Assembly: GCF_030696805.1 (NCBI RefSeq)
Contig: NZ_JAUYRO010000012.1
Span: 1-64,000, forward strand
Direction of reading: 5' to 3'
DNA length: 64,000 nucleotides
Origin: Methyloversatilis sp.
GTDB lineage: Bacteria; Pseudomonadota; Gammaproteobacteria; Burkholderiales; Rhodocyclaceae
Of the stretch, positions 168 through 7,942 are shown piece after piece (within the stretch, counting starts at the first letter, position 1; each line of letters starts with the position of its first letter). The notes beneath the pieces are model-generated. The model had not been told where the DNA came from and ran no database searches. It worked only from the letters and a program-made list of their open reading frames with translations. The translations under genes and the position numbers were made by a program.

Positions 168-821
168 TCAGCGCCGGCGGCGGCTCAGAGCGCCCAGCGT
201 GATCAGGCCTGCAATGGCAAGCGCCCAGGGTTGCGGCTCCGGTACCGGAGCCAGCACGATGCCCGGATAGAAGGTGTTCTGTTCCGGTGCGCCGAAGATG
301 GGCAGCAGCCCGTAGGGCGAGGTCGCCGTCGCGAGAGAGGGGTCGTCGTCTTCCGTCGCACTGATCAGCGTCAGTTCGAGACGCATGCTGTCGAACTTGA
401 GACCGGCGTCGAGCGTGATGGTATTGGTACCGAGATGGACGGACGAATTCACCACATCTGCCGCGGCATCGCTGAATACCTCAGCCGCGTCGTTGTACAG
501 CGTGAGCATGTAGTTCACGGTGCGGTCGCCGGCTTCACTGACGCCGAAGGCCATCAGCGGAAAGAAATCGCCCGATGCGACCACTTCCCAGTAACGGTCG
601 TCGACGATGGACAGGGTCCAGACGAAGGTGTCGCCGTCGTAGAGCACCGTGCTTTCCGGGTCATCGCTGCCGGCGGCAAGAGCGGCCACGCCTGCGCCTT
701 CATACAGCACGTCGAATGTGTAGCTCGCCGCGTGGGTAGCCGGCGCAAGCGCCAGACCGCCGATCAGCGCGGCCAGCGCCGCGCGGCGTTGAAACGGGGT
801 GCTTGTCGAGTGAATAGCCAT
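168..821 (-). CDS. PEP-CTERM sorting-domain protein
   Basis: A 217-residue exported protein. It has an N-terminal signal peptide (hydrophobic ALAALIGGLALAPATHA, cleavage near residue 31) and a C-terminal PEP-CTERM anchor (VPEPQPWALAIAGLITLGALSRRRR region): a VPEP motif, a transmembrane helix and an arginine cluster, the signal cut by exosortase/EpsH systems. The middle is acidic, predicted beta-rich, and has no recognised domain. The start at 819-821 follows a strong ribosome site (GAGGAAGGAAAG). It lies between the fragment at 1-147 and the hydrogenase gene, on the opposite strand to both. Function unknown; such proteins are usually envelope or exopolysaccharide-associated. Confidence 0.85.
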   Translation of the reverse strand: MAIHSTSTPFQRRAALAALIGGLALAPATHAASYTFDVLYEGAGVAALAAGSDDPESTVLYDGDTFVWTLSIVDDRYWEVVASGDFFPLMAFGVSEAGDRTVNYMLTLYNDAAEVFSDAAADVVNSSVHLGTNTITLDAGLKFDSMRLELTLISATEDDDPSLATATSPYGLLPIFGAPEQNTFYPGIVLAPVPEPQPWALAIAGLITLGALSRRRR

Positions 822-1084
822 GTCGTTCTTTCCTTCCTCGGGCGATGGGCACACGTCCGATCCGTCGTGGCCGGACATGTCTTGAACGTGCGCGAAGGCA
901 CGCCGGCGACAGCAACTCGTTTCAAAGCAGGGATCGCGCCAGAATCGAATCGTCGACGGCGGTTGCCAGAGCCGACAAGGGATGCAGGCCGGCCTGGCTC
1001 GTCGCCGTCGGCAGATACCGACGCAGCCTGGCGTCGCGGTGTAAAGCATGTCGACAGTTGCCACTCGTTCATCAGGACGCTTCC

Positions 1085-2539
1085 ATGACCCGCCTCCTCG
1101 TCGGCCCCTTCAATCGCGTCGAGGGCGATCTCGAAGTGACGCTGGACATCGCCGATGGCCGCGTCGCGTCGGCGCACGTGAATGCCCCGATGTACCGCGG
1201 CTTCGAGCAGATCCTGCGCGGGCGCGAGCCGCATGACGCGCTGGTGTATGTGCCGCGCATCTGCGGCATCTGTTCGGTGTCGCAGTCGGTCGTAGCAGCG
1301 CGCGCGCTGGCGGCACTCGGTGGCATCTCGATGCCGGCCAATGGCCAGCACGTGACCAATGTGATCCTCGCCACCGAAAACCTGGCCGACCACCTGACGC
1401 ACTTCTACCTGTTCTTCATGCCCGACTTCACGCGGCCGGTGTATGCGGCGCAGCCCTGGCATGCCGAGGCGGTGCGCCGCTTCACGCCGCAGAGCGGTGA
1501 GCAGGTGCGCGCCGCGATTGCCGCGCGCCAGCGCTGGTTCACGCTGCTTGGCACGCTGGCCGGCAAGTGGCCGCACACGCAGAGCATTGATCCGGGTGGT
1601 TCGACGCGCGCCATCGACGCCGCCGAGCGGGTGCGCCTGCTGGCGCGCGTGCGCGAGTTCCGTCGCTTTCTCGAAACCCGTACCTATGCCGCGCCGCTGG
1701 AACAGGTGGCTGCACTCGATTCGGAAGCGGCGCTCGACGCCTGGCACGACGGCGCCGATCCGCTGGCCGGCGATCTGCGCTTTTTCCTGACCGTTGCGCG
1801 CGATGCGGCACTGGCCACCCTCGGCGCCGGGCCCGGCCGCTTCATGAGCTACGGCGCCTATCCGCAGCCGGACGGCGGCACGGCACTCGGGGCCGGCGTA
1901 TGGCACGCCGGCGCGCTGTCGCCGCTCGACCCGGCCGCCATCCGCGAAGACGCCACCCACGCCTGGCTGAGCGCCGCTGGCGGTCCGCAGCATCCGCGCA
2001 CCGGCGTCACCCGGCCGGAACCGGACAAGGCCGGCGCCTACACCTGGAACAAGGCGCCGCGGCTGGCGGGCGAGGTGGTCGAAACCGGCGCCATTGCGCG
2101 CCAGCTTGCGAGCGGTCATCCGCTCATCGTCGATCTGGTCGGCCGCTACGGCGGCACCGTGTACACCCGGGTCGTCGCGCGCCTGCTCGAACTGGCGCGA
2201 GTGGTGATCATGATGGAAGACTGGCTGCGCGCAGTGCGACCGGGTGAGCCCTTCTGCACGCCGGGCAGGCTGCCGGATGAAGGCAGCGGCGCCGGTCTCG
2301 GCGAAGCGGCGCGGGGCAGCCTGGGGCACTGGATTTCGGTGCGTGACGGCCGCATCGCCAACTATCAGATCGTCGCGCCCACCACCTGGAATTTCTCGCC
2401 GCGCGACGCCGCCGGCCGGCCCGGCGCGCTGGAAGCTGCGCTCGAAGGCGCGCCGGTACGCGACGGCGAAACCACGCCGGTGGCGGTGCAGCATATCGTG
2501 CGATCCTTCGATCCCTGCATGGTGTGTACCGTGCATTGA
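1085..2539 (+). CDS. hupV: [NiFe] hydrogenase large subunit, H2-sensing (HupV/HoxC) type
   Basis: 484 residues. The Ni-Fe ligands are visible: CGIC at residues 60-63 inside RICGICSVSQS, and DPCMVC at 476-481 near the C-terminus. The protein ends exactly at His484 of DPCMVCTVH, with no peptide beyond it, so no maturation protease cleavage is needed. That, and SVSQS in place of the catalytic-type CxxxH, are hallmarks of the regulatory (group 2b) sensors HupV/HoxC. RVEGD near residue 11 is the conserved N-terminal motif. The start has AGGA at 1074-1077. Known role: with HupU/HoxB it senses H2 and controls the kinase HupT/HoxJ, which in turn controls hydrogenase transcription. nikR follows 13 bp downstream, and a HupT-like kinase lies at 5410. 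Confidence 0.9.
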   Translation: MTRLLVGPFNRVEGDLEVTLDIADGRVASAHVNAPMYRGFEQILRGREPHDALVYVPRICGICSVSQSVVAARALAALGGISMPANGQHVTNVILATENLADHLTHFYLFFMPDFTRPVYAAQPWHAEAVRRFTPQSGEQVRAAIAARQRWFTLLGTLAGKWPHTQSIDPGGSTRAIDAAERVRLLARVREFRRFLETRTYAAPLEQVAALDSEAALDAWHDGADPLAGDLRFFLTVARDAALATLGAGPGRFMSYGAYPQPDGGTALGAGVWHAGALSPLDPAAIREDATHAWLSAAGGPQHPRTGVTRPEPDKAGAYTWNKAPRLAGEVVETGAIARQLASGHPLIVDLVGRYGGTVYTRVVARLLELARVVIMMEDWLRAVRPGEPFCTPGRLPDEGSGAGLGEAARGSLGHWISVRDGRIANYQIVAPTTWNFSPRDAAGRPGALEAALEGAPVRDGETTPVAVQHIVRSFDPCMVCTVH

Positions 2540-2552
2540 CACCGGAGTCTGC

Positions 2553-3053
2553 ATGCAGCGCTTCACCATTTCCCTTGACGACCAGCTGGCTGCCCAGTTC
2601 GACGACTGGATCGCGCAGCGCGGCTACGGCAACCGCTCCGAAGCGGTGCGCGACCTGTTCCGCGCGGAGCTGGACCGCACAGCCCAGCAGACGGGTAGCG
2701 CGACGCAATGCGTGGCCTGTCTGTCGTACGTGTTCAACCACCACGAACGCGATCTGGCCGAGCGCATCATCAGCCTGCAGCACGCGCACCACGACCTCAC
2801 GGTGTCGTCGATGCACGCCCACCTCGACCACGACTACTGCCTCGAAACGGTCATCCTGAAAGGCGAGATCGCGGCGGTACGGCAGTTCGCCGACGCGGTG
2901 TGCGCCGAGCGCGGCGTGCATCACGGCCAGATCAACCTGATCAGCGTCGAACTGGATGCCGGCCACCACCACGCGGGGCCGGGCGGGCACAGCTATACGC
3001 GGCGGCACGAACGCGGCGGGCATGGCCACGTGCACATCAAGCCCAGCACCTGA
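2553..3053 (+). CDS. nikR: Nickel-responsive transcriptional repressor NikR
   Basis: 166 residues: an N-terminal ribbon-helix-helix DNA-binding domain (MQRFTISLDDQL...) and a C-terminal ACT-like nickel-binding domain. The high-affinity nickel ligands of E. coli NikR (His76, His87, His89, Cys95) align with His77, His88, His90 and Cys96. The last 30 residues are an unusual histidine-rich tail (GHHHAG, GGHGHVH) that could buffer nickel. The gene starts 13 bp after hupV with CGGAG upstream, so it is probably co-transcribed with the hydrogenase gene. A perfect NikR operator lies downstream, at the start of the TonB receptor gene. Confidence 0.96.
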   Translation: MQRFTISLDDQLAAQFDDWIAQRGYGNRSEAVRDLFRAELDRTAQQTGSATQCVACLSYVFNHHERDLAERIISLQHAHHDLTVSSMHAHLDHDYCLETVILKGEIAAVRQFADAVCAERGVHHGQINLISVELDAGHHHAGPGGHSYTRRHERGGHGHVHIKPST

Positions 3054-3153
3054 CGCAAGCACCGCTGCCGACGCACCGATCGAAACGGCAGCGCACTGAC
3101 CATCTCCGCCCCGGCTGTCTCGATGAAAGGCTTGCCAGGCGTGATGCGGTGAC

Positions 3154-3169
3154 TGGCACGGTTTTCGCG
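3154..3169 (+). promoter_or_regulatory. Candidate sigma-54 (-24/-12) promoter of the TonB receptor gene
   Basis: TGGCACG, four bases, then TCGC. This matches the sigma-54 consensus TGGCACG-N4-TTGC except for one T to C change, with the invariant GG (3155-3156) and GC (3167-3168) at the correct spacing. Transcription would start near 3180, inside the NikR operator. No bacterial enhancer-binding site was identified, so this remains a pattern match. Confidence 0.45.
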
Positions 3170-3196
3170 TATGAAGATCATCTCAAATCTTCATAC
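3169..3196. promoter_or_regulatory. NikR operator
   Basis: GTATGA (3169-3174), 16 bases, TCATAC (3191-3196). This is an exact match to the NikR consensus GTATGA-N16-TCATAC. It overlaps the candidate promoter at 3154-3169 and ends 4 bp before the ATG at 3201. Nickel-loaded NikR bound here should block expression of the TonB-dependent receptor. Its position also argues against the ATG at 3171 as the receptor start. Confidence 0.9.
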
Positions 3197-3200
3197 AAAA

Positions 3201-5327
3201 ATGAGCGCCGATAAAAGCTTGTCCGGGAAAGGTTTGCGCGCGTTGTCCGCCGTGGCTCAGGGCGGACTTCGGGCGCTGTGCGTGCCCGTCATCGGGGCGT
3301 GGGGCACCGCACTGGCGCACGAGGCGGCGCCGTCCGCCCACCATCTGGACACGGTGATGGTCGAGGGCCATTACGACAACGCGGTCGGCACCTCCGACGC
3401 GGCCAGCCAGGGCCGCGTTACCGCGCGACTGATCGAAAACCGGCCGACGCTGCGTCCGGCCGAGGTGCTGGAATTCGTGCCCGGCATCATCGTCACGCAG
3501 CACAGTGGCGGTGGCAAGGCGAACCAGTATTTCCTGCGCGGCTTCAACCTCGACCACGGCACCGACTTCGCCACCCATATCGATGGCATGCCGGCCAATA
3601 TGCCCACGCACGCGCATGGCCACGGCTACACCGACCTGAACTGGCTGATTCCGGAGCTGGTCGGTCGCATCGACTACCGCAAGGGCCCCTACTACGCGGA
3701 AGAGGGCGATTTCGCGTCGGTCGGTTCGGCGCGGCTGCGGCTGGTCGATCGCCTTGATTACGGCACCGCCGAAGTGACCATCGGCCAGGATGGCCACCGG
3801 CGCGGCCTGCTGATGAATTCTCATGCGCTTGGCGCCGGCACGCTGCTGTATGCGCTGGAGACCTCGCGCAGCGACGGCCCCTGGGACAATCCGGAAGACT
3901 TCCGCCGCATCAATGGCGTGTTGCGCTACACGCTGGGCGAGGGTGCAGATCGCACCTCGCTCACCGCGATGGCCTACACGGCGCGCTGGGACTCGACCGA
4001 CCAGATTCCGCTGCGCGCCGTGCAGTCCGGCCTGATCGGCCGCTACGGCACGGTGGACCCGACCGACGGCGGCAAGACGCAACGCTACAGCCTGTCGATT
4101 GACCATCAGCGTGCCTGGGACGACGGTGCCTTCCGCTTCAATGCGTATGCCATCCAGTCGGAGCTGGACCTGTGGTCCAACTTCACCTTTTTCCTCGATA
4201 ACCCGGCCGACGGCGACCAGTTCCGCCAGTCCGAACAGCGCAACGTGTTCGGCATGGCGATGAGCCGCAGCTGGGACGGTCTGCTGGCCGGTCGGCCGAT
4301 GACCAACACGCTGGGCGTGCAGATGCGCCACGATCGCCTCAGCCCGGTCGGGCTCTACACCACGGTTGCGCGCCGCACCACCGGTGTCACCCAGCAGAGC
4401 GACGTGCGTCAGACGAGCGTCGGCCTGTACGGCGAGAACAGTGTGCAATGGACGCCCTGGCTGCGCAGCCTGGCCGGACTGCGGCTCGACCACTACGACT
4501 TCGACGTCAGCAGTTCGATCGCCGCCAACAGCGGCGACGCGAACGACCACATCGCCTCGCCCAAGCTGTCGTTCATTTTCGGGCCGTGGGCGCGCACCGA
4601 GTATTTCGTGAATTACGGCAACGGCTTCCACAGCAACGACGCCCGCGGTACCACGGCGCGTGTCACCGCCCGGGGCGGGCTGCCGACCGATCCGGTGGAC
4701 GCGCTGGTGCGCACCAGGGGCGGCGAAGTCGGCGTGCGCACCGAGTTCATCCGCGGCCTGCAGAGCTCGCTCGCCGTGTGGACGCTGAAGCTGGATTCGG
4801 AACTGCTGTTCGTCGGCGACGCCGGCGAGACCGAACCCAACCGCGCCAGCCGGCGCAGCGGCATCGAGTGGAACAACCGGTGGACGATGCGTCCGTGGCT
4901 GCTGTTCGACCTCGACATCGCCGCCTCGCGCGCCCGTTTCGCCGAGGACGACCCGGCCGGCAACCACGTGCCGGGCGCGGTCGACCGCGTCGTCGCCGCC
5001 GGCCTCAGCCTGACCGACGCCAATCCGCTGGCGAATGGCTGGTTCGGTCACCTGCAACTGCGTCACGTCGGCCCCCGTCCGCTGGTCGAAGACAATTCGG
5101 TGCGCGCCGGTTCGACCACGCTGGCCTATCTGCGCCTCGGCCACCGGCTCAGCCGCGACCTGCGGCTGATGCTGGACGTATTCAACCTGTTCGACAGCGG
5201 CGACAACGACATCGAGTACTTCTACACCTCGCGCCTGCGCGGCGAAGCGGCGGGCGGTATCGATGACCGTCACTTCCACCCGGTCGAGCCGCGCAGCCTG
5301 CGCGTCACCCTGAGCGCCCGTTTCTGA
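3201..5327 (+). CDS. TonB-dependent outer-membrane receptor, predicted nickel importer
   Basis: 708 residues from the ATG at 3201: a signal peptide ending near ...GAWGTALA, a histidine-containing mature N-terminus (HEAAPSAHH), a TonB-type plug (about 50-190, with LRPAEVLEFVPGI, YFLRGFNLDHGTDF and the His-rich THAHGHGY) and a C-terminal beta-barrel ending in ...LRVTLSARF. Substrate is inferred from regulation: a perfect NikR operator covers the 5' end and nikR is the gene upstream. Nickel-transporting TonB receptors under NikR are known in other proteobacteria. The start is uncertain: ATG 3171 lies inside the operator, ATG 3201 has no Shine-Dalgarno sequence, and an in-frame TTG at 3243 sits 10 bp after GGGAAAGG. 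Confidence 0.88.
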   Translation: MSADKSLSGKGLRALSAVAQGGLRALCVPVIGAWGTALAHEAAPSAHHLDTVMVEGHYDNAVGTSDAASQGRVTARLIENRPTLRPAEVLEFVPGIIVTQHSGGGKANQYFLRGFNLDHGTDFATHIDGMPANMPTHAHGHGYTDLNWLIPELVGRIDYRKGPYYAEEGDFASVGSARLRLVDRLDYGTAEVTIGQDGHRRGLLMNSHALGAGTLLYALETSRSDGPWDNPEDFRRINGVLRYTLGEGADRTSLTAMAYTARWDSTDQIPLRAVQSGLIGRYGTVDPTDGGKTQRYSLSIDHQRAWDDGAFRFNAYAIQSELDLWSNFTFFLDNPADGDQFRQSEQRNVFGMAMSRSWDGLLAGRPMTNTLGVQMRHDRLSPVGLYTTVARRTTGVTQQSDVRQTSVGLYGENSVQWTPWLRSLAGLRLDHYDFDVSSSIAANSGDANDHIASPKLSFIFGPWARTEYFVNYGNGFHSNDARGTTARVTARGGLPTDPVDALVRTRGGEVGVRTEFIRGLQSSLAVWTLKLDSELLFVGDAGETEPNRASRRSGIEWNNRWTMRPWLLFDLDIAASRARFAEDDPAGNHVPGAVDRVVAAGLSLTDANPLANGWFGHLQLRHVGPRPLVEDNSVRAGSTTLAYLRLGHRLSRDLRLMLDVFNLFDSGDNDIEYFYTSRLRGEAAGGIDDRHFHPVEPRSLRVTLSARF

Positions 5328-5409
5328 CGGCAGGCGCGATGCGACGAGTTGGCGGGGCGGACACCGTCGGCGCTACCATGCGCTGCTGACGCCGCCCCTG
5401 CCCGCCGCG

Positions 5410-6843
5410 ATGACCGAACATCCGAAATCCGCCAACACCGAAGCCCTGCTGGCCCGCGCCCACATCGACGGTGTGGACGAGGCGACCTGGCTGGATGTGA
5501 TCCAGCGCATGGACGAGGTGTACTCGCAGCTGGTCAGCGACGAAATCGCGCTCGAGCAGAAGAACGTCGAACTGGAACAGTCGCAGCAGTTCATCTTCAG
5601 CGTCATGTCGGCGATGTCGGACGTGCTGCTGGTGTGCAACGAGCGCGGCGAGATCGAGGAAACCAACGCTGCGCTGTGCGAACTGGTCGGTCGCAGTGAT
5701 GACGCGCTGCGCGGCACGCCGGTGTTCGCGCTGCTGGCCGACGACGAAAGCCGAGCCCGCATGCGCAGCGTGCTCGATGACGCCAATCCGTCGCGCCGGG
5801 GCGAGGCGGTCGAGCTGAACCTGCGCGACGCTGCGGGCGCCGGGGTGCCGGTGGACACCAACCTGACGCCGCGTTTCACGCGCAACGGCCGGCGCGCCGG
5901 CACCGTGCTGGTCGGCCGGCCCACCGCCGAACTGAAGCGTGCCTACCACGAGCTGCGCGAGGCGCACGAGGCGCTGAAGCTGGCGCAGCAGCAGTTGCTG
6001 CATTCGGAAAAGATGGCTTCGCTCGGCCGCCTGGTGGCCGGTGTCGCGCACGAGCTGAACAACCCGATCAGCTTCGTGCTGGGCAACGTGCATGCGCTGA
6101 AGAAGTACAGCGAACGCATGGGGTGCTACATCGACGCGGTGCACGCCGGGGCGTCGGACGAGGAACTGGGCGCGCTGCGCGTCAAGCTGCGCATCGAACA
6201 TCTGCTGAAGGATCTGCCCTCGTTGATCGAAGGCACGATGGAAGGCGCGCAGCGCACCGCCGACATCGTCAACGGGCTGAAACGCTTTTCCGCCGTTGAT
6301 CCGGAAGGTCGCAGCGCCGTCGATCTCACTGCCGTGATCGAGCGGGCCATCCACTGGATACACAAGGGCACCAGCGCGGTCGTCACCCTGCACTGGGCGG
6401 CGCGCGAACCTTGCGTGGTCACGGGCAGTGCGGGTCAATTGCAGCAGGTGGTCATGAATCTGCTGCAGAACGCCTACGACGCGGCCGGTGCCGACGATCG
6501 TGTCGCCGAGCTCACGCTGAGCTGCACCAACGAGGGCGACCGGGTACGCATGAGCCTGCACGACGACGGACCGGGCATACCCGACGAGTACCTGTCGCGC
6601 ATTTTCGAGCCTTTCTTCACCACCAAGCCGGTCGGCAAGGGCACCGGCCTTGGCCTGTCGATCAGCTACGGCATCGTCGAACAGCACGGCGGCGTGCTGT
6701 CCGCCCGCAACCACCCGGAGGGCGGTGCGGAATTCGTGCTGGACCTGCCGCGCGCAGTGGCCGGCCCGTCTGAGGGCGAATCGAAGCGGTGTCCGACGGA
6801 CGAGCCGACGGGAACTACTCGATCCTGTCCAGCGCCGCCTTGA
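5410..6843 (+). CDS. Sensor histidine kinase, HupT/HoxJ-like
   Basis: 477 residues, cytoplasmic (no membrane segment). The N-terminal helical region ([18 protein letters not shown], coiled coil to about 60) is followed by a PAS domain (60-175), a coiled coil, the H box ([20 protein letters not shown], His214) and an HATPase domain with N box (NLLQNAYDA), G1 (DDGPGIP), F (FEPFFTTK) and G2 (GTGLGLS). This layout is that of HupT/HoxJ, the kinases that read the sensor hydrogenase and phosphorylate HupR/HoxA. The short link to hupV, nikR and the nickel receptor supports that. No response regulator is adjacent. Its last 29 bp overlap the converging aminotransferase gene. No clear ribosome site precedes the ATG. 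Confidence 0.8.
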
Positions 6844-7942
6844 AGTTCTGCACCGTGCGTTCGATGTTCTGCAGCTTGTCGAGGCCGAACAGGCCGATGC
6901 GGAAGCTGCGGAAATCGGCCGGTTCGTCGACCTGCAGTGGCACGCCGGCGGCGATCTGCAGTCCCTGCGCCATGAACTTCCTGCCGTTCTGGATATCCGG
7001 ATCGCTGGTGTAGCTGACCACGACGCACGGCGCCTTGAAACCTTCGGCGGCAACGCTTTCGAAGCCGCGCGCTTCCATCAGCGCGCGGATCTGGCGGCCC
7101 AGTTCGATCTGGTTCGCTTTCACCTTGTCGAAGCCGAAACTTTCGGTTTCCAGCATGACATTGCGCAATTGCGTCAGACCGTCGGTCGGTAGCGTGGCGT
7201 GATAGGCATGGCCGCCGCCTTCATAGGTTTCCATGATCTGCAGCCACTTCTTCAGGTCGGCGGCGTAGCTGGTGCTGGTGGTTGAATCGATGCGTGCGCG
7301 GGCGCGCTCGCCCAGCATGACCAGACCGGCGCACGGCGAACCGCTCCAGCCCTTCTGCGGCGCGCTGACGACGATGTCGATCCCCAGTGCGCCCATGTCC
7401 ACCCAGAGCGTGCCGGCGGCAATGGCGTCAAGCACGAACAGGCCATCGACCTCGCGCACCGCGGCAGCGACTTCGCGCAGATAGTCGTCCGGCAGTTGCA
7501 GGCCGGCCGAGGTTTCGACCTGCGGTGCGAACACCACGGCGGGCTTGTGTTCGAGGATGGCGGCGACCACTTCATTGACCGGCGGCGGTGCGAAAGCCTT
7601 CTGCGACCCGGGCACCGGCTGGCGCGCCTTCAGCACGACCGATTCGGACGGAATGCGGCCCATGTCGAAAATCTGCGTCCAGCGGAAGCTGAACCAGCCA
7701 TTGCGGATGACCATCACCTTCCGGTCGGTGGCGAACTGGCGCGCAACCGCTTCCATGCCGAAGGTACCGCTGCCCGGCACGACGACCGCCGATTTCGCGT
7801 TGTAGACCTGCTTGAGCACGCGCGAAATGTCCTTCATGACGCCCTGGAACGATTGCGACATGTGGTTCAGCGCGCGGTCGGTATACACGACCGAATATTC
7901 GAGCAGCCCCTGGGGGTCGACGTTGGGCAACAGGCTGGGCAC
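6815..7942 (-). CDS. Class V PLP-dependent aminotransferase (alanine/serine-glyoxylate type)
   Basis: 375 residues from a GTG start at 7940-7942, chosen because GGAGA lies 5 bp upstream and the family fold begins there. Class V aminotransferase features are visible: the cofactor-binding PGSGTFGMEA loop, FVLDAIAAGTLWVDM with the PLP-ring Asp, and the Schiff-base lysine in SAPQKGWSG. Members transfer amino groups between alanine or serine and glyoxylate or pyruvate. Serine-glyoxylate transaminase belongs here and matters in C1 assimilation, but the substrate cannot be read from sequence. It converges on the kinase gene, overlapping its last 29 bp. Confidence 0.85.
   Translation of the reverse strand: MPSLLPNVDPQGLLEYSVVYTDRALNHMSQSFQGVMKDISRVLKQVYNAKSAVVVPGSGTFGMEAVARQFATDRKVMVIRNGWFSFRWTQIFDMGRIPSESVVLKARQPVPGSQKAFAPPPVNEVVAAILEHKPAVVFAPQVETSAGLQLPDDYLREVAAAVREVDGLFVLDAIAAGTLWVDMGALGIDIVVSAPQKGWSGSPCAGLVMLGERARARIDSTTSTSYAADLKKWLQIMETYEGGGHAYHATLPTDGLTQLRNVMLETESFGFDKVKANQIELGRQIRALMEARGFESVAAEGFKAPCVVVSYTSDPDIQNGRKFMAQGLQIAAGVPLQVDEPADFRSFRIGLFGLDKLQNIERTVQNFKAALDRIE

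Follow-up and report, generated by a model that had tools for sequence, protein, structure and literature searches.

A NikR operator abutting a sigma-54-like element before a TonB-dependent receptor gene in a Methyloversatilis hydrogen-sensing locus: a candidate hydrogen and nickel gate

Cells must match nickel import to hydrogenase demand, and the locus described here raises the question of how the two signals could be joined at a single gene. The locus is situated at the start of the analysed window, i.e. the first 64 kb of the 198-kb contig C47 of a Methyloversatilis genome (4.19 Mb, 123 contigs), where a gene for a TonB-dependent receptor (3201-5327, + strand) stands between nikR, encoding a nickel-responsive repressor, and hoxJ, encoding the kinase of an H2-sensing system. 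A NikR operator lies before the receptor gene and abuts a sigma-54-like −24/−12 element, and genes for NikR, HoxA, HoxB, HoxC and HoxJ are present. Hydrogen and nickel appear to be read together at one short promoter, and on balance the 43-bp stretch 3154-3196 is read here as a fused H2/nickel logic gate, in which the transcription start site itself would lie within the NikR operator.

The operator (GTATGAAGATCATCTCAAATCTTCATAC, 3169-3196) reads GTATGA-N16-TCATAC with 0 mismatches, which is the operator of E. coli nikABCDE. An exact consensus match at this position had been reported in an initial annotation of the DNA; it was borne out, and the inverted-repeat arms (GTATGAAGAT / ATCTTCATAC) were found to be longer than claimed, being perfect over 10 bp each. 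The positions given there for nikR (2553) and for the end of the receptor frame (5327) were both right, and the genome-wide search for the site that it had proposed was run: a single exact site was obtained in the whole genome, with 0 for a reversed-pattern control and 0 for the exact operator with an N15 spacer. At up to 2 mismatches, 17 sites (3169-3196 included) were counted vs. 12 for the control; the other 16 look like background, and NikR may therefore have just one strong target in this genome. A large NikR regulon was rejected on the same counts, with the other 16 sites not inspected individually and N15 searched as an exact pattern. As a correction to the initial annotation, the longest receptor frame begins at ATG 3171, within the operator, and an alternative ATG (3201) follows directly after the operator; a start just 3' of the operator is similarly placed in related genomes. 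By eye, no Shine-Dalgarno-like sequence was seen before either ATG.

A strong inverted repeat 3' of nikR could also be an RNA hairpin or terminator of the hoxC-nikR transcript and not a protein site. This is very improbable, as the arms fit the NikR consensus and recur before nickel-type genes elsewhere, the stem is AT-rich without a T run, and a terminator scan gave 0 hits, upon which the candidate was rejected.

The repressor gene (nikR, 2553-3053, + strand) starts 13 nucleotides (nt) after the hoxC stop codon. Its product scored above cut-off for both PF01402 (ribbon-helix-helix) and PF08753 (NikR_C); among the NCBIfam models, PRK02967 was matched at 205 bits (cut-off 83) and TIGR02793 (nikR) at 162.5, under its cut-off of 175.45. 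E. coli NikR binds nickel through His76, His87, His89 and Cys95, and in an alignment to that protein (1q5v, residues 1-130) His/His/His/Cys were identical at all four ligand places. A His-rich tail (window 2943-3053) extends ~30 residues past the E. coli protein, and similar tails were seen in many aligned relatives. With this repressor and this operator in place, NikR control of the receptor gene is very probable.

Directly 5' of the operator, TGGCACGGTTTTCGC (3154-3168, + strand) shows the GG-N10-GC spacing of a sigma-54 −24/−12 element. The sigma-54 promoter consensus is TGGCACG-N4-TTGC. If the element is a promoter, transcription is predicted to start at ~3180, a position central to the operator and 21 nt 5' of ATG 3201, which agrees with the initial annotation in that the operator would cover the likely receptor promoter. 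An ordinary sigma-70 promoter was rejected, as a scan of 2950-3400 gave 0 hits, and a riboswitch was rejected in the absence of any Rfam match at the gathering threshold within 2500-7000. The pattern TGGCACG-N4-TYGC occurred 14 times in the genome vs. 12 times for the control, so that the motif alone is no evidence and the case rests on place and conservation.

Conservation was assessed in the 12 genomes of the genus with the receptor (own counted). TGGCACG-N4-TCGC preceded the receptor gene in 7 of them and a 2-mismatch form in two more (G005, G009), giving 9/12, and in 8 of these 9 the GTATGA half of the operator abuts the GC of the −12 half. At the M. universalis EHg5 locus (L020) the element is likewise found, with an operator of the N15 type. 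Mean pairwise identity was 0.905 for the element (15 bp), 1.0 for the left operator arm (9 bp), 0.48 for the operator middle and 0.45 for upstream DNA (best 15-bp upstream window 0.54); these figures derive from an ungapped alignment of 8/12 rows (G009, G002, G008 and G011 left out), and both the ungapped alignment and the choice of rows for having the element favour the conservation contrast. In G009 the element is kept and the operator is degraded, with NikR not found in this 93% complete genome. G009 can be regarded as a natural test, with the pattern as expected if element and operator serve different proteins. From place and conservation, 3154-3168 is probably a sigma-54 promoter.

The competing explanation is plain nickel control, in which NikR acts on an ordinary promoter, TGGCACG-N4-TCGC is conserved for some other reason and H2 is irrelevant to receptor expression. 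Several observations speak for it and against the gate. The element carries one mismatch to the consensus (TCGC instead of TTGC in the −12 half), and it is absent in 3/12 genus genomes (G002, G008, G011), two of which (G008, G011) have lost it but retain nikR together with a weaker operator. No such element (≤2 mismatches) was detected upstream of the start at 18 receptor loci outside the genus, nor was it present in the Afipia, Methylomagnum and Comamonadaceae plasmid stretches, though near-operators are found there, and at a Variovorax locus a 2-mismatch element is located ~43 bp before the operator. When 399 genomes of the order were searched with a strict pattern (exact operator, TGGC-N9-GC), which misses weaker forms, the own genome alone had the abutting form; the idea that such a promoter is widespread in the order was rejected, at 3/399 genomes (own included), two of them with different spacing, in a sample that held no other genome of the same genus. 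On the other side stand the empty sigma-70 scan, the GG-N10-GC element in 9/12 genus genomes, including G009 with its lost operator and G004 with differing upstream DNA, and a like design in Bradyrhizobium. Plain nickel control is accordingly considered a possible but rather unlikely explanation.

The Bradyrhizobium case emerged from a scan of six plasmid loci; operators with ≤1 mismatch are present at four of the six. The Bradyrhizobium guangxiense locus (L167) has an exact N16 operator at 7577-7604 and, on its 5' side and separated from it by 5 nt, TGGCCTGAATATTGC at 7557-7571; both precede hoxN (7622) and a receptor gene, with H2-sensor and hydrogenase genes downstream; the predicted start again falls inside the operator. 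The stretch with element and operator was unchanged in seven plasmid records, and in Bradyrhizobium strain 62B (L184:4576-4623), with 79% identical DNA, the element was unchanged and the operator had one mismatch. Elements with ≤2 mismatches numbered 26 in 98 kb on one strand of such loci, which gives a chance of ~0.003 for one to end ≤10 nt from a given operator.

Which activator could serve such a promoter? An NtrC-type regulator, HoxA, belongs to the H2-sensing system of the locus. The initial annotation had placed a sensor hydrogenase beside the receptor, and the full HoxA/B/C/J set was found. HoxA (73% identity to HoxA of the Cupriavidus necator plasmid pHG1) comprises a receiver, a sigma-54-interaction domain and a Fis-type helix-turn-helix, with the GAFTGA motif present. 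Together with HoxB, a HoxC that has no C-terminal extension and a PAS kinase, this NtrC-type regulator constitutes a regulatory hydrogenase system, divided between two contigs here and located on one in the relative L016. At the position of Ser in HoxJ of C. necator H16 (GTGLSLS), HoxJ has Gly (GTGLGLS). The H16 kinase is inactive and is restored by S422G (PMC10073562); we take the inactivity of that kinase to stem from this residue, and the H2 sensor is expected to work here because HoxJ has the Gly. In C. necator, HoxA-driven hydrogenase promoters require sigma-54, and HoxJ and the H2 sensor switch HoxA, according to the passages available from PMC10073562 and PMC11540253.

A candidate activator site, GGCAGCGCACTGACC (3087-3101, + strand), lies ~85 bp before the predicted start, its role being suggested by position. 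Sigma-54 activators commonly bind about that far before the start. The block GGCAGCGC[AG]CTGACC at 3087-3101 is kept with one variable position in 7/12 rows of a gapped alignment and is incomplete in G005, G009, G011, G008 and G002. In 10/11 genus genomes (L110, L174-L183), TGGCCCG-N4-TTGT was found 84-168 bp before hupS, preceded in most of them by an AT-rich stretch, and G008 has TGGCTCA-N4-TTGC; this block is likely the sigma-54 promoter of the uptake hydrogenase. Against HoxA, the hup operon, which is expected to answer to it, has a sigma-54-like element of another form, no shared HoxA site was established, and other sigma-54 activators may exist. Given a sigma-54 promoter, HoxA is still regarded as its probable activator, a step held a little less firmly than the promoter itself.

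The remaining question is what the receptor imports. The protein scored above cut-off for PF07715 (plug) and PF00593 (barrel) and under the cut-offs of the NCBIfam models that it matched; five named loci with receptors 81-93% identical all belong to Methyloversatilis. The family was surveyed in 199 relatives (own genome left out; receptor match threshold E up to 1e-60; lists compiled by hand), of which 47 had the receptor, 78 NikR and 113 a NiFe-hydrogenase match; with the own genome included, the tallies are 48, 79 and 114 of 200. Receptor and NikR occurred together in 39 genomes, the receptor only in 8, NikR only in 39 and neither in 113 (Fisher p ~3e-12), or in 29, 7, 39 and 112 without the genus (p ~2e-9); the receptor-carrying relatives split into 36 with and 11 without a hydrogenase (p 0.002), or 25 and 11 without the genus (p 0.06), with all p values ignoring shared ancestry. 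Because the hydrogenase association is the weaker one, the receptor follows NikR first. Receptor and nikR were ≤6 kb apart in 29/40 genomes having both (own included) and farther apart in 11. Within the genus, 11/12 relatives carry the receptor, and the one without it (G007) is also without a NikR or hydrogenase match.

Neighbourhoods point in the same direction. Among the best 30 matches of the receptor search (L057-L086), an N15 or N16 operator (≤1 mismatch) was found near the start at 14 loci, nikR at 18 and a HoxN-like NiCoT permease directly upstream at 8. On plasmids, nikR neighbours either the receptor gene or hoxN paired with it in Afipia (pHCG3, within a hyp cluster), Paraburkholderia, Methylomagnum and a Comamonadaceae strain, i.e. 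near the receptor on alpha-, beta- and gammaproteobacterial plasmids, and operators with ≤1 mismatch are present in Afipia, Methylomagnum, Comamonadaceae and Bradyrhizobium. In Paraburkholderia, NikR beside the HoxN-receptor pair (L170:3080-3538) has Arg and Leu at two ligand-motif places (MRVHLDHDSLLE); it is possibly of other specificity or a dead sensor, and an operator was not found nearby.

Another substrate, such as cobalt, zinc or a metallophore complex, with NikR merely limiting a nickel side entry, would fit the following observations. The plug histidines (H137 and H139 of the 708-aa protein) are invariant in 34 aligned family members, mostly from Verrucomicrobia and the like, and 29/29 loci from such organisms are without an operator of <3 mismatches. 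A Methylorubrum relative is located ~3.4 kb from cobalamin genes, and matches to solved structures were weak and limited to the B12 receptor BtuB. Further points weigh against a nickel importer. The annotated stretch around a Sphingobium relative shows no gene for nickel, a Novosphingobium record being unannotated. At the other 16/30 receptor loci the scanned stretch held no N15/N16 operator with ≤1 mismatch, and none with ≤2 mismatches was present in the stretches from Paraburkholderia and Methylorubrum or in relatives L186-L190. NiFe hydrogenase was not detected in 11/47 and NikR not in 8/47 receptor-carrying relatives. A NicO/NiCoT permease (PF03824) was not found in the own genome, HupE/UreJ and CbiMNQO not having been searched; it was rejected as a candidate, a motif search (L109, L110, window) having given two spurious-looking frames. 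Against another substrate stand the repeated linkage to nikR, HoxN-type permeases and hyp/hup genes, and repression by nickel, as befits a gene for nickel import. This alternative is judged quite improbable, and import of nickel or a nickel-chelate is, from operator and neighbourhood, the probable function. The nickel-repressed outer-membrane nickel importer proposed in the initial annotation is supported by the four-ligand NikR, the exact operator, the co-occurrence and adjacency of receptor and NikR, and HoxN-type permeases and receptors behind the same operator type. Family members were detected in alpha-, beta- and gammaproteobacteria as well as in Verrucomicrobia.

Operator spacing was compared across 200 genomes (own counted). 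The exact N16 operator was present at 15 sites in 15/200 genomes (control in 6 genomes), with 10 of the loci by receptor, permease or DUF4198-like genes, four (L002-L005) not and one (L015) not assigned. The exact N15 operator was present at 28 sites in 25/200 genomes (control 10 sites, 9 genomes); for the 25 loci inspected, leaving out three second sites, neighbours were NiCoT permeases (10), this receptor (4), other TonB receptors (4) and DUF4198-like genes (2), with 5 not assigned, seven example proteins being Pfam-checked and L013 and L147 assigned by eye. Judging from these counts (28 vs. 15), N15 looks like the common form in the order and N16 like a variant. At L012, L134 and L139 the operator is placed before the permease.

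Some of these loci are of interest in their own right. NikR-type operators precede DUF4198 or DUF4198-like genes in other genera (L013, L014, L147, L148), which are candidate nickel-handling genes. An exact N16 operator (L002:1501-1528, G164) lies before a metE-like gene (named by eye), either by chance or as a nickel/cobalt link to methionine synthesis. In G002, a different inverted repeat, GTGATGT-N16-ACATCAC, stands just 5' of the receptor start (L066); this genome has two NikR matches, and operator specificity may have changed.

The preferred reading, that of the fused gate, can be put together as follows. In the presence of H2, sensed by HoxBC, HoxJ would stop inactivating HoxA, and HoxA with sigma-54 RNA polymerase at 3154-3168 would open the promoter near 3180. 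Nickel-loaded NikR at 3169-3196 would block it when nickel is sufficient, so that the receptor would be produced only with H2 present and nickel short. The receptor would then take Ni(II) or a nickel-chelate through the outer membrane on TonB energy, and the imported nickel would supply both the hydrogenases encoded in the cluster and the H2 sensor, which itself contains nickel. As a whole, this AND-NOT logic of H2-dependent sigma-54/HoxA activation and Ni-NikR repression is tentatively favoured. A link of H2 sensing, nickel sensing and nickel import in one cluster had been part of the initial annotation; its tie to H2 sensing is stronger than stated there, because of the sigma-54-like element.

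The window opens with the 3' end of hoxB (1-144, + strand; H2-sensor small subunit), which is nearly whole at C5:3-998; the end of contig C5 and the start of C47 overlap by 146 nt with 2 mismatches, so that an orphan hoxC was rejected, the contig edge explaining its separation from hoxB. hoxC (1085-2539, + strand; PF00374) encodes the regulatory [NiFe] hydrogenase large subunit, with 71% identity to pHG1 HoxC; it ends in ...DPCMVCTVH without a C-terminal extension, like C. necator HoxC, with the last 24 residues identical to pHG1 HoxC, and scores under cut-off in all NCBIfam models matched. hoxJ (5410-6843, + strand) encodes a PAS histidine kinase with 64.5% identity to pHG1 HoxJ over 433 residues. 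Besides hoxA, contig C5 carries hyp genes and genes for two hydrogenase large subunits, one of the uptake type and one that by eye is HoxH-like. In L016 the order hoxA-hoxB-(reverse gene)-hoxC-nikR-receptor-hoxJ is found on a single contig. The reverse-strand gene (window 168-836, − strand; L016:2969-3634) has a PEP-CTERM-like C-terminus by eye and no Pfam match; it lies between hoxB and hoxC here, in L016 and in L018, not in L017 or L020, and precedes hoxC in L019, where the locus is cut.

Compared with known systems, the locus shares with E. coli nikABCDE the repressor family, the sequence and spacing of the operator and the nickel logic, and differs in its target, a TonB receptor encoded within an H2-sensor cluster, and in the sigma-54-like element that adjoins the operator. 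To our knowledge, it is unusual for a metal-sensing repressor to act on a sigma-54 promoter. Rodionov et al. (2006) reportedly used comparative genomics to predict NikR sites at nickel genes. PMC2667541 cites, as ref. 47, predictions, obtained comparatively as here, that NikR controls other nickel transporters and hydrogenases; the words TonB and outer membrane have 0 occurrences in PMC2667541 itself. TonB-dependent outer-membrane nickel uptake is described for H. pylori FrpB4 and H. mustelae NikH (PMC7689651, in part), and NikR repression of FrpB4 is given in a reference title in PMC9696931. FrpB4 and NikH resemble the role proposed here by description, not by sequence, and the passages available on them mention no H2-sensor cluster or sigma-54 element, unlike the present locus, whose receptor is a strong candidate for nickel import across the outer membrane in a bacterium other than Helicobacter. 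H. pylori NikR represses flgR, which encodes a sigma-54 activator (PMC12622350); NikR touches the sigma-54 circuit there via the activator's gene, whereas here the operator abuts the sigma-54-like element itself. A literature search, with subscription papers mostly outside it and hence weak as evidence of novelty, yielded nothing on a NikR operator lying on a sigma-54 promoter or on this receptor, the nearest being PMC12622350. NikR-controlled TonB receptors are already known; the proposed fused promoter would be the new feature.

Among hydrogenase plasmids, the hoxABCJ-hoxN-TonB receptor region of C. necator pHG1 (NC_005241) has the same sensor genes and a receptor 49% identical, 4.4 kb after hoxN; it differs in having no nikR match in a 20-kb stretch, no NikR-type operator (≤3 mismatches) in the 500 bp preceding the receptor gene, and Ser in HoxJ where Gly is found here. 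Afipia pHCG3 and the Paraburkholderia, Methylomagnum and Comamonadaceae plasmids have a related receptor near nikR, with hyp genes adjoining in Afipia and one-mismatch operators of the N16 type in Afipia and the N15 type in Methylomagnum and Comamonadaceae; they differ in that no sigma-54-like element (≤2 mismatches) is present in the scanned stretches and, for Paraburkholderia, no operator (≤2 mismatches). Similar in design are the hoxN-TonB receptor-hup regions of the Bradyrhizobium symbiosis plasmids, which have the same kind of sigma-54-like element and an exact N16 operator, a predicted start in the operator and adjoining H2-sensor genes. They differ in that the operator serves a hoxN-receptor pair, the element reads TGGCCTG-N4-TTGC with a 5-nt gap, and no nikR is present in the annotated stretch. 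If the gate is true, its recurrence in Bradyrhizobium with other letters would make it a recurrent tie of nickel import to hydrogen use.

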